Below the pieces are notes generated by a model. The model did no database searches and was not told the DNA's origin. It worked only from the letters and a program-made list of their open reading frames with translations. A stretch of 52,454 nucleotides of DNA. Origin: Desulfuromonas sp. (GTDB taxonomy: Bacteria > Desulfobacterota > Desulfuromonadia > Desulfuromonadales > Geopsychrobacteraceae). Positions within the stretch are counted from its first letter, which is position 1. Each line of letters opens with the position of its first letter. A program made the position numbers and the translations under genes. Location of the stretch: the NCBI GenBank assembly GCA_002868865.1, contig PKUC01000002.1, forward strand, positions 1 through 52,454, in the 5' to 3' direction. Below, piece by piece: positions 47,970-52,454 of the stretch.

Positions 47970-47998
47970 TCGACAGAGCATCAACACTGGTCTATACT
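47970..47998 (+). promoter_or_regulatory. Sigma70-like promoter of the SLC5-phosphatase operon
   Basis: TCGACA (-35) and TATACT (-10) with an exact 17-base spacer. Transcription would begin near 48005 and give a leader of about 50 bases to the ATG at 48055. Five of six bases match consensus in each box. Confidence 0.65.
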
Positions 47999-48054
47999 GA
48001 ACGATATAGATGCATAACACTTTGTAACGCCCACCTGACGACCGGGGATGCCTG

Positions 48055-48294
48055 ATGAAACAACCACAGGGCAGTTCAACACGTGAAGCCTGGATCCTCT
48101 GCCTGATTCTGGGGATCATTATGTTGAACTTTCCGTTTATCCAGATCTTCAATTCGGGAAAGTTCCTGCTGGGCGTACCGGTTCTGGTCGTCTACTTTTT
48201 TATCGGCTGGCCGCTCTCCATTTTGGTCATCTACCTGTTCACCTGTCAACTCGAAAGAGATGATCAGGACGACGAAGATCGGGGCGATTCATGA
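48055..48294 (+). CDS. Small two-helix membrane protein coupled to the SLC5-type sensor (CbrX-like position)
   Basis: 79 residues. Two hydrophobic segments (AWILCLILGIIMLNFPFIQI and LLGVPVLVVYFFIGWPLSIL) with a strongly acidic tail (ERDDQDDEDRGDS). Its stop overlaps the next ATG by four bases (ATGA), so translation is coupled. Small membrane proteins of this size accompany many sodium:solute symporters, and in Pseudomonas the small ORF cbrX is coupled to cbrA in the same way. Probably a subunit or folding partner of the following protein. Confidence 0.75.
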   Translation: MKQPQGSSTREAWILCLILGIIMLNFPFIQIFNSGKFLLGVPVLVVYFFIGWPLSILVIYLFTCQLERDDQDDEDRGDS

Positions 48295-51200
48295 TTTCCG
48301 CACAGGTTGTCGCCCTCGCCTCACTGGCCTATTTTGCTCTGCTGTTCGGTGTCGCCTACTACGCCGACAGACGACGCGAACAGGGTCGCAGCCTGATCTC
48401 TAACTCGTATATCTATTCGTTATCGGTGGCAGTCTACTGCACCTCCTGGACATATTACGGCAGCGTCGGTCGCGCCGCGACCAGTGGTTTGGATTTTCTC
48501 CCGGTTTATCTGGGTCCGACCCTGATCGCCTTTACCTGGTGGTTCCTGCTGCGCAAGATGGTCCGCGTCAGCAAGGAGCAGAACATCACCAGCATCGCCG
48601 ACTTTCTCTCCAGCCGTTATGATCGATCGGCTCTGCTCGGCGCGATTGTCACCCTGTTCGCGATCCTCGGCATCATGCCGTATATCGCTCTGCAGCTTAA
48701 AGCGGTGGCCCACACCTTCGACATCCTGGTTTACCCCACCGCTCAGCGCGGGCACTCGCTGCACAGCCTGTTCCCCGCGCTGCCCGAAATGTTCGATACC
48801 GCTTTTATCATGGCGCTGATCCTCGGCCTGTTCGGTGTCCTGTTCGGTGCGCGCAGTCTCGATGCATCAGAACGTCACGAAGGGCTGGTCGCGGCCGTGG
48901 CATTGGAATCTCTGATCAAGATCATCGCCTTTCTCGCCGTCGGCCTGTTCGTCACCTATGGGCTGTTTGATGGTTTCGGCGATATTTTCAGACGTTTTCA
49001 CGCTCAGTTTCCCGACCGTGACACGCTGTTCAGGCTCGGCGAGGGAGCGATCTCCTACCCCAACTGGTTCACCCTGACCTTTATTTCGATGATGGCGGTC
49101 ATGTTCCTGCCCCGTCAGTTTCACATCATGGTCATCGAAAATGCCGACGAGCGGCACATCAAGCAGTCGATGTGGCGCTTTCCGGCCTTTATTTTTCTGA
49201 TCAACCTGTTCGTCATTCCCATCGCTTTGGGCGGCTTGCTGTTTACCGGTGGTGATGCCTCACAGGCCGATTATTTCGTCATCAACCTGCCCCTGGCATC
49301 AGGCCACCCGTGGCTGGCGCTGCTGGTCTTTATCGGTGGATTTTCCGCATCGGCCGGAATGGTGATGGTGTCATCAGTCACCTTGTCGACCATGACCCTA
49401 AATCACCTGATCATGCCGCTGATCCTCAAGTGCAAATTCCCCTTCGGGGATTACTCGGGCATACTGCTCAACATCAAGCGACTCGGCATCCTGCTGGTCG
49501 TCCTGCTCGGTTATTTCTACTTTCGGGTGATCGGCGAATCGTACGCGCTGGTCAATATCGGCCTGATCTCTTTTATGGCAGCCACCCAGTTCGCGCCAGC
49601 CATGCTTGGCGGCCTCTATTGGCGGCGCGCCAACCATAAGGCGGCTATTGTCGGGCTGTCGCTAGGGTTTCTCCTCTGGTTCTATACCCTGCTGATCCCT
49701 TCGTTTGTACTGTCCGGCTGGCTCGAAAGCGACATTCTCGAAAAGGGCCTGTTTGGCATCACCCTGCTCCGTCCGCTGGAACTGTTCGGTCTGAGCGGCT
49801 TCGACATCTGGACACACTCGCTGTTCTGGAGCATGTTCTTCAACCTCGCCGCCTTTCTCACCCTTTCATTTTTCACCCGCCAGAGTGAATCGGAAGCCCT
49901 GCAGGCCAGCCGATTTGTGGATGCCCTGGGAGAATCCCATTTTATTTCCCAGCGGCAACGGATCAGCCGCGCACCCACCGTGCTGGAATTTGTCGAGCTG
50001 ATGTCGAAGTTTATCGGTGAAAAACAGGCCAACGCCTCTATTGCCGAATATCTGGCGCAGAACAATCAGGAAATCAATCACCGCGGCAGCCTGTCAGACG
50101 ATGAAATCCCCAAATTGAAGACCTTCACCGAGCGCACCCTGGCCGGATATGTCGGCGCCGCACCGGCACGGATTATCCTCGAAAACTATCTGTCGACCCG
50201 CGGCAGCAGAATGGAAGACGTCTTCGATATTTTCGGCTCCGTCACCCTCAGCCGGACCGCCAGCCGCGAACAGCTCAGCGTCCTCTACGAAGCCTCGCAG
50301 ATCGTCGCCAGCGGCAATGAACTGCAACAATCCCTCGACGACATTCTCGGGCTGCTGGCGCAACAGTTCAAATTCGACCTCTGCGTCATCCGCTTCCTCG
50401 ATGATCAGCAGATGACCCTCACGGTGCGCAGCCAGCAGGGCATGTCCTCCGAACATTTTGGCGAATCGGAACGCAATCTGGATATGACCACCTATATCGG
50501 TTCGGCCTTCCTGTCGAACAAACCGGTGCTCGTCAACGATTGTGACTACCTCGACAAACCGACCTCCGCCGCAATCATCCGCCGTGAGGGGATCAAATCG
50601 TTCGCCCACGCACCCATCGTCATCGAAGGGCAACCGGTCGGTGTCCTCTCAGCCTTTTCGCGTTCATCCAAGGGGATCTTCACCGATGAGTTCGTGGCGC
50701 TGTTCAACAACATCGCCGGACAGGTGGCCATCGCCTGGCGGAACGATCAGCAGCTGACCGGACTGCTCGAAAGCCGCGAACATGAGCGCGAGCTGGAGAT
50801 CGCCAAAACCATCCAGATGGGACTCCTGCCGGCCAACGTCCCCCATGTCGGCGCCATCGATCTGGCTGGCCTCTGCGTACCCGCACATCAGGTGGGGGGA
50901 GATTATTACGACTTTATCGGTCACAGCGATCAGGCCCTCGATCTGATCGTCGCCGACGTCTCCGGTCACAATATCGGCTCTGCGCTGATCATGGCCGAAA
51001 CCCGCACCTTCATTCAGTCACAGGCGACAACCCTCACCCAGCCGCACCAGATGCTCGAGGCTCTCAACCATTTCTTCTATAACGATCTGACCCGGGCTGA
51101 ACTGTTCGTCACCATGTTCTACATGCAATACCTGCCGGAAAACCATCAGCTGCGCTACGCCAGCGCCGGTCACAACAAGCCGCTGCTGTGGCGTAAATCT

Positions 51201-51566
51201 GATAACAGCACAAGCTGGCTCGATGCAGAGGGTCTGATCCTCGGCATCAAACCGCAGGTCACGTTCGAACAGGTCACAACCAGTCTGCAGCCGGGCGATA
51301 TCCTGGTGCTGTACACCGACGGGGTCACCGAGGCGGAGAATGCAGGCGGCGAGTTTTTTGGAGAAGAACAATTGGAAAAGCTAGTGCGCCGCTGCACCGG
51401 GCTGAGCGCCGAGGAGATCATCAACGCCATCCTGCAACAAATTCGCACATTCAGCGGACACCACCATTTCAAGGATGACATCTCACTCGTTGTCCTTAAA
51501 ATCTTGGAACAGCAAGAAGACACTGCACATATATCAACGGCCAACCCGCAAGGAGAACCACTATGA
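48291..51566 (+). CDS. SLC5-STAC-GAF-PP2C fusion: transporter-like sensor with SpoIIE-type phosphatase output
   Basis: 1091 residues. Residues 1-535 form about 13 membrane helices of the sodium:solute symporter (SLC5/PutP) family, closest in feel to the sensor part of CbrA (YIYSLSVAVYCTSWTYYGSVG, ASERHEGLVAAVALESLIKI, MTLNHLIMPLIL). Residues about 545-640 look like a STAC linker (RTLAGYVGAAPARIILENYL). Residues about 660-820 form a GAF domain. From about 825 a short coiled stretch (REHERELEIAKTIQMGLLP) leads to a PP2C/SpoIIE phosphatase with metal Asp residues in GGDYYDF (about 870), ADVSGHNIGSAL, YTDGVTEAENAGGEFFG and DDISLVVLK (about 1063). There is no histidine kinase. The phosphatase should dephosphorylate the STAS protein encoded next. 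Overlaps both neighbours by four bases. Confidence 0.9.
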   Translation: MISAQVVALASLAYFALLFGVAYYADRRREQGRSLISNSYIYSLSVAVYCTSWTYYGSVGRAATSGLDFLPVYLGPTLIAFTWWFLLRKMVRVSKEQNITSIADFLSSRYDRSALLGAIVTLFAILGIMPYIALQLKAVAHTFDILVYPTAQRGHSLHSLFPALPEMFDTAFIMALILGLFGVLFGARSLDASERHEGLVAAVALESLIKIIAFLAVGLFVTYGLFDGFGDIFRRFHAQFPDRDTLFRLGEGAISYPNWFTLTFISMMAVMFLPRQFHIMVIENADERHIKQSMWRFPAFIFLINLFVIPIALGGLLFTGGDASQADYFVINLPLASGHPWLALLVFIGGFSASAGMVMVSSVTLSTMTLNHLIMPLILKCKFPFGDYSGILLNIKRLGILLVVLLGYFYFRVIGESYALVNIGLISFMAATQFAPAMLGGLYWRRANHKAAIVGLSLGFLLWFYTLLIPSFVLSGWLESDILEKGLFGITLLRPLELFGLSGFDIWTHSLFWSMFFNLAAFLTLSFFTRQSESEALQASRFVDALGESHFISQRQRISRAPTVLEFVELMSKFIGEKQANASIAEYLAQNNQEINHRGSLSDDEIPKLKTFTERTLAGYVGAAPARIILENYLSTRGSRMEDVFDIFGSVTLSRTASREQLSVLYEASQIVASGNELQQSLDDILGLLAQQFKFDLCVIRFLDDQQMTLTVRSQQGMSSEHFGESERNLDMTTYIGSAFLSNKPVLVNDCDYLDKPTSAAIIRREGIKSFAHAPIVIEGQPVGVLSAFSRSSKGIFTDEFVALFNNIAGQVAIAWRNDQQLTGLLESREHERELEIAKTIQMGLLPANVPHVGAIDLAGLCVPAHQVGGDYYDFIGHSDQALDLIVADVSGHNIGSALIMAETRTFIQSQATTLTQPHQMLEALNHFFYNDLTRAELFVTMFYMQYLPENHQLRYASAGHNKPLLWRKSDNSTSWLDAEGLILGIKPQVTFEQVTTSLQPGDILVLYTDGVTEAENAGGEFFGEEQLEKLVRRCTGLSAEEIINAILQQIRTFSGHHHFKDDISLVVLKILEQQEDTAHISTANPQGEPL

Positions 51567-51904
51567 AACTGACCACCGAAGAGCATGGCGATATCGTCAA
51601 GATTATCGTCGATGAGGAAAGAATGGACGCCCACAACAGTGGGGCGCTTAAAGAAGAGATGCTGCGCTTGTTTGACAATGACAAATGCAATCTGGTGATC
51701 GACCTGTCAGCGGTTCGATTCGTCGATTCGTCCGGTCTCGGCGCACTGGTTTCCGGGTTTAAAAATGCCAGCAGCAGGGACGGCAGCCTCAAACTCTGCT
51801 GTCTGCAGCCGCAGGTGCGCTCCATGTTCGAACTGACCCGTCTGCATCGTGTTTTCGAAATCTATTCGTCAGCCGATGAAGCCCTCGAAAGCTTCACCCA
51901 ATAA
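51563..51904 (+). CDS. STAS-domain anti-sigma factor antagonist (RsbV/SpoIIAA-like)
   Basis: 113 residues, single STAS domain. VRFVDSSGLGALVSGFKNAS contains the phospho-acceptor serine (S56, the first Ser after Asp55, by analogy with SpoIIAA). Unphosphorylated, it would bind the RsbW-like kinase encoded next; phosphorylated, it would let go. It is the expected substrate of the PP2C domain, whose gene it overlaps by four bases. Confidence 0.93.
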   Translation: MKLTTEEHGDIVKIIVDEERMDAHNSGALKEEMLRLFDNDKCNLVIDLSAVRFVDSSGLGALVSGFKNASSRDGSLKLCCLQPQVRSMFELTRLHRVFEIYSSADEALESFTQ

Positions 51905-51923
51905 AGCATAGGTAGAGAAAGCT

Positions 51924-52346
51924 ATGTCGGAAATTATCGCCGTTGACATTACGATTCCCAGTCAGACCAAATATCTGAGTCTGATCGGGCGGATCGGCGA
52001 AAACCTGGCCCACACCGCGATCCCCTTTCTGGGGGATCGTGATGAATTGGCGTTCCACCTCAACCTGGTCCTGACCGAAGCTGCCACCAATGCCATCTGC
52101 CATGGCAACAGGGAAGATCCCGACAAGCAGCTCCGGGTCGTCATCTCCATCTCAGAGGAACGCCTGTTTCTCCAGGTTTTCGATCAGGGCAAGGGGTTCG
52201 ATCTCTATAAACTGGCCGGTTCTGTGGCTAAAGAAACCGATGAAGAGGGGCGTGGCGTGCAGCTGATCTGCCGCTTGATGGACGCCGTCGATTATCGCAA
52301 AAGCCCGGACGGGTATGTCCTCGAAATGGTGAAAAATCTTCAGTAG
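51924..52346 (+). CDS. RsbW-like serine kinase / anti-sigma factor (HATPase_c)
   Basis: 140 residues, GHKL ATPase fold: N-box LTEAATNAICHGN (E52, N56), G1 box DQGKGFD (D87, G89, G91) and G2 box GRGVQLICRLMD. This is the size of RsbW/SpoIIAB. It would phosphorylate the STAS protein and hold back a partner protein. No sigma factor gene is found within the window, so its target is unknown; non-sigma targets are known in other proteobacteria. Confidence 0.92.
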   Translation: MSEIIAVDITIPSQTKYLSLIGRIGENLAHTAIPFLGDRDELAFHLNLVLTEAATNAICHGNREDPDKQLRVVISISEERLFLQVFDQGKGFDLYKLAGSVAKETDEEGRGVQLICRLMDAVDYRKSPDGYVLEMVKNLQ

Positions 52347-52356
52347 TCGACCCTGT

Positions 52357-52454
52357 TCAGGGCTGCGAAGGTCCCATCTGGTCGATCCATTCAACCAGAT
52401 GGAGATGATCTCTCAGGCGATACCCGCCATCGACGCCGCCACCATAACAGGCAA
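52357..52454 (-). CDS. 3' end of an unidentified gene (partial)
   Basis: Minus-strand frame running in from the right edge for 31 codons and ending with ...YRLRDHLHLVEWIDQMGPSQP and a TGA. The composition is protein-like, and the gene would converge on the RsbW-like gene with 10 bases between stops. The piece is too short to name; the other two minus-strand frames are also partly open. Confidence 0.35.
   Translation of the reverse strand, partial: ACYGGGVDGGYRLRDHLHLVEWIDQMGPSQP

Follow-up and report, generated by a model that had tools for sequence, protein, structure and literature searches.

A predicted partner-switching operon of Desulfuromonas sp. that joins a CbrA-like sensor to a PP2C-type output

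The window analysed here, a stretch of 52,454 nucleotides from Desulfuromonas sp. (GenBank assembly GCA_002868865.1, contig PKUC01000002.1, forward strand), carries in its last 4.4 kb an operon of four plus-strand genes, designated X, T, S and W. A reading made from the sequence only had described it as a partner-switching module driven by a transporter-shaped sensor. The genes and the domains assigned to T are as follows.

48055..48294, plus strand: X, CbrX-like two-helix membrane protein of 79 residues (open reading frame; ATGA overlap with T)
48291..51566, plus strand: T, putative SLC5-STAC-GAF-PP2C transceptor phosphatase of 1091 residues (domain searches, CbrA match, structural model)
48291..49880, plus strand: predicted SLC5 domain of T, about residues 1–530 (CbrA alignment; K210 at CbrA K196, Na2 site)
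49917..50246, plus strand: predicted STAC domain of T, about residues 543–652 (CbrA match to residue 637; helices 564–636 in the model)
50268..50750, plus strand: GAF domain of T, about residues 660–820 (Pfam, residues 678–816, 2e-16; solved structure 2qyb)
50685..50825, plus strand: long helix of T, residues 799–845, joining GAF and PP2C (DSSP on the model; predicted local distance difference test score, pLDDT, under 50 at 824–829)
50856..51509, plus strand: PP2C/SpoIIE domain of T, residues 856–1073 (D871, D889, D1010, D1062, D1063)
51563..51904, plus strand: S, stand-alone STAS protein of the anti-sigma-antagonist type, 113 residues (DSSG at 55–58)
51924..52346, plus strand: W, RsbW/SpoIIAB-like GHKL serine kinase of 140 residues (HATPase_c_2)

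The open reading frame coordinates bear out the tight gene order that had been read from the sequence, with ATGA overlaps at X/T and T/S and a spacer of 19 bases (51905–51923) between S and W. We consider it probable that the four genes encode a membrane-bound partner switch in which a transceptor is the sensor, T being of the CbrA/CrbS kind and X its small membrane subunit.

Residues 7–637 of T matched the solved SLC5-STAC chain 10ed_A with an E-value of 5.8e-70 (6e-93 with a profile of 31 relatives); this chain is listed as a histidine kinase and was assigned to CbrA by the position of K196, its length and the accompanying paper (PMC13022988). The kinship with CbrA and the domain order claimed for T are thus upheld, GAF and SpoIIE being recovered by Pfam, whereas the SSF domain also expected of a domain search was not among the Pfam matches of T at E-values up to 1. 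The best NCBIfam transporter match, to the monocarboxylate permease MctP, was weak (2.3e-12; 46 bits against a cut-off of 625). Judged from the 10ed_A match, the weak MctP match and the predicted fold, the N-terminal half of T is an SLC5 domain followed by a STAC four-helix bundle. The AlphaFold model of T (mean pLDDT 78, predicted template modelling score 0.54) comprises transporter helices, a GAF fold, the long helix 799–845 and a PP2C fold, with four helices at 564–636 in the STAC region and low-confidence stretches on both sides of them; SLC5 transporters, RssB, SiaA, Rv1364c and 2qyb were among the 50 Foldseek matches listed for this model, and 10ed was absent among these 50.

In CbrA, K196 is a lysine located in the Na2 site (PMC13022988). 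Its counterpart in T, K210, is invariant in the T alignment, which holds 31 of 39 stretches (left out were L009, L023, L024, L027 and the second L041 copy, with inner stops, L013 as one of a similar pair, and L053 and L054, which are not PP2C); in a wider set it is lysine in 28 of 29 PP2C rows and valine in one. Sodium coupling should therefore not be assumed. Positions of the CbrA pocket were counted by hand on the CbrA alignment, F248 and F406 lying outside the mapped set: Y51, W55, F71 and Y75 correspond to Y49, W53, F69 and Y73 of T (held in 25, 29, 27 and 28 of the 29 PP2C rows, respectively), and in place of S53 and A56 T has T51 and T54, which are held in 27/29 and 29/29 of these rows and are also usual in proteins without PP2C. 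Since the pocket residues of T are shared across the whole family, histidine cannot be presumed to be the ligand.

The small membrane protein noted upstream of T is present and can be described more specifically. X has two hydrophobic stretches in its 79 residues, and its alignment holds 32 of 36 sequences (L014, L020, L026 and L031 were left out). It gave no credible match to solved structures, and no CbrX chain appeared among its PDB matches at E-values up to 10. A hidden Markov model of X found a small open reading frame directly upstream of 79 of 88 SLC5-STAC loci without a PP2C match, from several phyla (the 88 include at least two duplicate pairs, L082/L164 and L084/L177); one of its 80 matches falls outside the position just upstream of an SLC5-STAC gene. 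The CbrX gene overlaps cbrA, and CbrX packs against the SLC5 domain of CbrA in a cryo-electron microscopy structure (PMC13022988). X likewise is a two-helix membrane protein encoded upstream of, and overlapping, an SLC5-STAC gene; we term it CbrX-like, a link drawn through the homologous frames at those 79 loci and the position of CbrX. A CbrX-like subunit may thus be a general feature of the SLC5-STAC sensor family.

The cytosolic part of T departs from that of CbrA. The GAF region matched 2qyb, the GAF region of a putative membrane protein of Geobacter sulfurreducens PCA, at 2.5e-32 with 44% identity, and Pfam SpoIIE covered residues 880–1071 with an E-value of 1.2e-54. In comparisons of sequence or fold the PP2C domain matched RssB, SiaA, Rv1364c and SpoIIE, all of which are signalling phosphatases. 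A loss of catalytic aspartates, on which the proposed phosphatase output had been staked, was not seen: D871, D889, D1010, D1062 and D1063, among them those that we take to bind metal, are invariant in all 31 aligned T proteins. The output being SpoIIE/PP2C and not the DHp-CA module of a histidine kinase, T belongs to the transceptor family but not to the kinase family of CbrA and CrbS. It shares with RsbU-type PPM phosphatases a SpoIIE/PP2C domain with its aspartates and, in the model, a helical linker between sensor and phosphatase. RsbU is activated when its linker helices pair its PP2C domains, and its authors predict the same helical-linker switching for GAF-bearing phosphatases and propose that sensors are exchangeable (PMC12143880). 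T fits such a mechanism, with a sensor half common to kinases and the long helix as linker; by analogy with RsbU and from the model, helix 799–845 is likely to be the transmission element.

The partners expected for such a phosphatase lie next door, as had been claimed; the domain searches agree and the inspected residues are intact. S matched Pfam STAS (1.7e-22) and TIGR00377 (84.7 against a cut-off of 53.45), as well as TM1442, SpoIIAA and RsbV and, like the last two, it is a stand-alone STAS protein with a serine in a DSSG/DSTG motif. D55-S56-S57-G58 is invariant in all 33 S proteins; the alignments of S and of W each hold 33 of 33 sequences. The phosphosite had been placed at S56; the alignment puts that of SpoIIAA (S58, in what we take to be its numbering) on S57 instead, so that S57 is the likely and S56 a possible phosphosite of S. 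W, a GHKL ATPase of about 140 residues, matched HATPase_c_2 (2.2e-20) and, among solved chains, is closest to RsbW and SpoIIAB, although it stayed below the cut-offs of the RsbW and SpoIIAB equivalog models. Its residues E52, N56, D87, G89, G91, G109 and G111, which we take to form the N-box with its Glu/Asn and the G boxes, are invariant in 33/33.

Among the HATPase_c_2 matches of this genome W scores highest (73 bits), a partial second copy on contig C95 being due to contig overlap; among other matches, one in a 614-residue frame barely passes the cut-off (27.5 against 27.4) and 13 fall below it. S is the strongest of four STAS matches, two others lying in 526- and 618-residue frames and one having an inner stop. 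Besides T, the genome encodes one more SpoIIE phosphatase, a stand-alone protein of 242 residues (L064 1360–2088, G000:C43), which may act on S too. No STAS or RsbW-like protein was noticed in the open reading frame list of the 3.6 kb locus L064.

The arrangement recurs throughout the class. A search for T at E-values up to 1e-150 found matches in 175 of 200 genomes of the class, and in 158 of these the E-value was printed as 0; no match from outside the class was as strong (best, 869 bits). The best E-values of the remaining 17 were above 0, and these may be fragments or kinase-type proteins; one of them, G282, is a full PP2C gene (L163). In the DNA that was fetched, 67 T loci were distinct by PP2C sequence, and X, S and W stand in order around 55 of them; the gene order predicted to recur in relatives is thus present, and because of these 55 loci chance can be excluded as the origin of the arrangement. 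Twelve cassettes are incomplete, three of them cut off (L027, L081 and L201) and nine not, although L227 has only 480 bases downstream. Among seven genomes with T copies lacking S and W, six (G044, G046, G084, G391, G404 and G431; G399 lay outside those checked) contain a complete second cassette, and several sensors may therein feed one switch. The loci of the extra T copies were noted as L041, L052, L159, L206, L223, L224, L225 and L227. Ranked by median identity to the window, the proteins follow the order S (0.77), T (0.67), W (0.55) and X (0.51); that S is the most conserved is expected, because it must fit both kinase and phosphatase. At L036 (2807–6019; G055, a single contig), an in-frame stop interrupts the GAF region of T, and X, S and W remain.

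The output domain itself appears to have a simple history. In 297 genomes drawn evenly from the phylum there were 51 matches of T at 1e-150, 12 from this class and 39 from others; those running through the phosphatase were confined to this class, whereas matches from other classes end at or before residue 886. Among 18 loci from other classes (L164–L181), 17 show kinase-like motifs and L179 was not callable, kinase output being called by loose motif patterns rather than by domain search. The scan of named genomes covered at least 80 loci, and the restriction of the PP2C type to the class holds for the phylum sample. In a quick tree of 76 SLC5-STAC rows (midpoint root, single-value support), a single branch (99 in the Shimodaira–Hasegawa-like approximate likelihood ratio test) separates the PP2C rows and one broken PP2C protein, 29 rows in all, from the rest. 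PP2C versus kinase output needs one change among the 70 rows with a called output; this count sets aside six uncalled rows, including L024 (PP2C in a broken frame), and becomes two changes if L024 is treated as a group of its own. Since one change suffices on the tree, these sequences are most simply explained by the output domain having been exchanged once.

Taken together with the known partner switches, the operon would work as follows. W, with ATP, would phosphorylate S on a serine of the DSSG motif and would thereby be free to hold its client. In the active state, set by the SLC5 domain (through a ligand or a proton-driven state), by the GAF domain or by both, a change would pass from STAC through GAF and the 47-residue helix, the PP2C domains would pair, and T would dephosphorylate S. 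Bare S would then bind W, and the client would be released. Phosphotransfer, the contacts among T, S and W, the direction of the switch and the identities of ligand and client are thus predicted; the client is most likely a sigma factor.

Several observations weigh against this reading. On the side of the sensor, the SLC5 domain of CbrA is non-essential for signal perception (PMC9100948), and CbrX is not required for growth on histidine (PMC13022988). Since CbrA still signals without SLC5, its sensing being thought cytoplasmic, T may sense through its GAF domain or by another cytosolic cue and not, as the earlier reading suggested, through a solute. The GAF domain would then respond to a nucleotide, a 2-oxo acid, a redox cofactor or the like, SLC5-STAC would serve as an anchor or a modulating transporter, and no external solute would set the switch, a reading that we hold to be a serious possibility, if somewhat short of probable. 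GAF-bearing PP2C phosphatases such as RsbZ are known (PMC12143880); in our tree GAF is present in all 28 PP2C rows and in the frame-broken row, and it is nearly as conserved as SLC5 (mean majority 0.75 versus 0.78). However, conservation within T is highest in SLC5 and STAC (0.78, as compared with 0.69 for PP2C), and most mapped positions of the CbrA pocket are held. The same conservation, together with the invariant Na2-site lysine and the conserved small subunit, disfavours the idea that the operon is an ordinary RsbU-RsbV-RsbW stress module with SLC5 as a decayed leftover; all three switch proteins are indeed of standard type, but we rate this as highly improbable.

Further points against the transceptor-driven switch concern its genetic setting. 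Nine uncut T genes among the 67 distinct ones are without S and W next door, and at L049 a response-regulator and kinase pair converges on W in place of HAD-type and lgt genes (see below). No sigma gene adjoins the cassette in this genome or in the neighbourhoods examined. In family f4, the nine genomes listed match RpoS but not T. Finally, co-occurrence lends no support to RpoS as the client: a strict RpoS match was found in 157 of the 175 genomes with T and in 21 of the 25 without (Fisher p=0.49), in a table built by hand from two lists, with seven unlisted genomes placed by elimination. The strict cut-off misses real factors, a factor of RpoS-like size in G047 (385-residue frame) being unmatched, and the family's own RpoS cut-off was passed by none of the 200 genomes. 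The six g256 genomes also lack a match to T, the search there and in f4 having been for T only; 14 of these 15 f4 and g256 genomes were seen to have a strict RpoS match.

Searches with sigma-70 regions 2 and 3 of this 2.66 Mb genome, given as 100% complete, found two factors, one in a frame of 608 residues, which for its length we take to be RpoD, and the other a protein of 331 residues; no RpoH, FliA or ECF factor was found by them. The best NCBIfam model for the 331-residue protein was RpoS, at 345 bits and thus below the cut-off of 394. It adjoins what we take to be a LysM/M23-like protein, which presumably parallels rpoS beside nlpD. As the RpoS-type factor and RpoD were the only sigma-70 factors found, the former is the best sigma candidate for W. 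Partner switching on RpoS has been reported in Pseudomonas and Shewanella (PMC6482189), and we tentatively name the RpoS-type factor as a possible client. With a similarly guarded weight, W may instead hold a non-sigma client, such as a diguanylate cyclase, a response regulator or an enzyme, as in SiaABCD or HsbA-type systems. The lack of a nearby sigma gene and the retention of RpoS without T in f4 would agree with this, as would the closeness in fold of the PP2C domain to SiaA, SiaABC answering to carbon availability (PMC7647112); against it, we noticed no gene for a cyclase next to the cassette in the neighbourhoods examined, and the solved chains closest to W are RsbW and SpoIIAB.

If a sigma-like protein is the client, the switch read here as transceptor-driven may be put in a bolder form, namely that one exchange of output turned a CbrA-type transceptor into a serine-phosphatase transceptor which, jointly with a subunit like CbrX, makes RpoS (or the one sigma-like client of W) available according to carbon supply, as a main gate of the general stress or starvation response in the Geobacter/Desulfuromonas class. 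We regard this as doubtful. We consider it unlikely that the signal is acetate or another short monocarboxylate, T reporting carbon supply in acetate-oxidising bacteria. MctP is the best transporter match, if a weak one, and the threonines at CbrA S53/A56, as in most homologues without PP2C, mean that the ligand need not be histidine. Family f4, with no match to T in its nine listed genomes, includes a genome that we take to be Pelobacter carbinolicus, a non-acetate-oxidiser, but the best T match of the genome that we take to be P. propionicus has an E-value printed as 0; a link to acetate by the pattern of loss was therefore rejected, since Pelobacter species are described as unable to oxidise acetate (PMC3543383) and T in the presumed P. 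propionicus shows that this inability is no predictor of the absence of T. Another article (PMC2669807), searched for passages on this subject, yielded none on sigma or symporter genes.

Compared with CbrX-CbrA of Pseudomonas and its partner CbrB, the operon has in common SLC5 and STAC, the lysine in the Na2 site and a small hairpin protein encoded upstream in an overlapping frame. Where CbrA has a PAS domain and signals through a histidine kinase to a response regulator, T has GAF and PP2C, and in the pocket T51/T54 replace S53/A56. CrbS/MxtR (acetate) and RpuS (control of a pyruvate symporter), compared by published description, share the SLC5-STAC transceptor architecture but have two-component outputs instead of PP2C, STAS and RsbW-like partners. 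Conversely, the RsbU/RsbP/RsbZ-RsbV-RsbW systems of sigma-B and SpoIIE-SpoIIAA-SpoIIAB have the same PP2C, STAS substrate and GHKL kinase with the same key residues; here the sensor is membrane-bound and transporter-shaped, and the operon contains no sigma gene. Response regulators of the CrsR/HsbR type carry phosphatase and kinase parts in one protein, and in the Sia system of P. aeruginosa the sensor SiaA is not known to be of the SLC5 type, a diguanylate cyclase being the client described. CrsR-CrsA of Shewanella and HsbR-HsbA of Pseudomonas represent proteobacterial partner switching reported on RpoS (PMC6482189), with a response regulator as sensor; in the present operon phosphatase and kinase are separate and the phosphatase is membrane-bound. 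SiaA-SiaB-SiaC-SiaD resembles it in combining a PP2C phosphatase with partner proteins and in its response to carbon availability (PMC7647112).

The claim that the combination is not well described fits the literature examined, in part. SLC5-STAC proteins are described as histidine-kinase sensors, with GGDEF outputs also mentioned (PMC5715377), and no SLC5-STAC-PP2C-STAS-RsbW operon appeared in titles or abstract openings among the matches listed; subscription journals lay mostly outside this search, and absence from print is not claimed. On the other hand, proteins joining a solute/sodium symporter, HATPase_c, GAF and PP2C_SIG have been noted in Actinobacteria (PMC7918813). By their description these share symporter, GAF and PP2C with T in general, but have HATPase_c in the same chain, and STAC is not named in the section of that article that deals with them.

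Many bacteria of the Geobacter/Desulfuromonas group carry the set, in which nutrient or metabolic state may set a switch of gene expression, the same membrane sensor apparently driving in this class a serine phosphatase with its STAS substrate and kinase adjacent. With one sensor family and two output chemistries, comparison can show how transporter motion passes through STAC. The operon also supports the view that kinases and PP2C phosphatases exchange their sensor domains (PMC12143880), and it gives a testable input for global regulation in metal-reducing, electricity-producing bacteria.

Two further features border the operon.

47970..47998, plus strand: promoter-like site TCGACA-17-TATACT ahead of the operon (consensus scan; weak)
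52123..52454, no strand: contig end overlapping the start of contig C95 (332 columns, 97.6%, no gaps; L003 1–332)

The promoter-like site, at whose first base (47970) the earlier reading had begun the module, has weak support, five such sites being found in the region as compared with 2.4 in shuffles. Judging by the overlap at the contig end, W is the last gene of the operon and is followed by convergent HAD-phosphatase and lgt genes; at 97.6% the overlap looks like two strain variants, and it indicates the order of both contigs. On the opposite strand 3′ of W lie, by names assigned from protein sequences, a HAD-type phosphatase, lgt, a pseudouridine synthase, guaA and guaB. The HAD-type and lgt genes facing W are plain in 7 of the 16 neighbourhoods that hold W (L035, L039, L042, L043, L045, L047 and L051), the remainder, except L049, being less clearly called or incomplete. 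Directly upstream of X, loci L035 to L040 and L044 have a gene for a protein of 517–533 residues, with similar start regions, which looks like a kinase or phosphotransferase, and in the window and some other loci a divergent gene for a TPR lipoprotein lies upstream of X.

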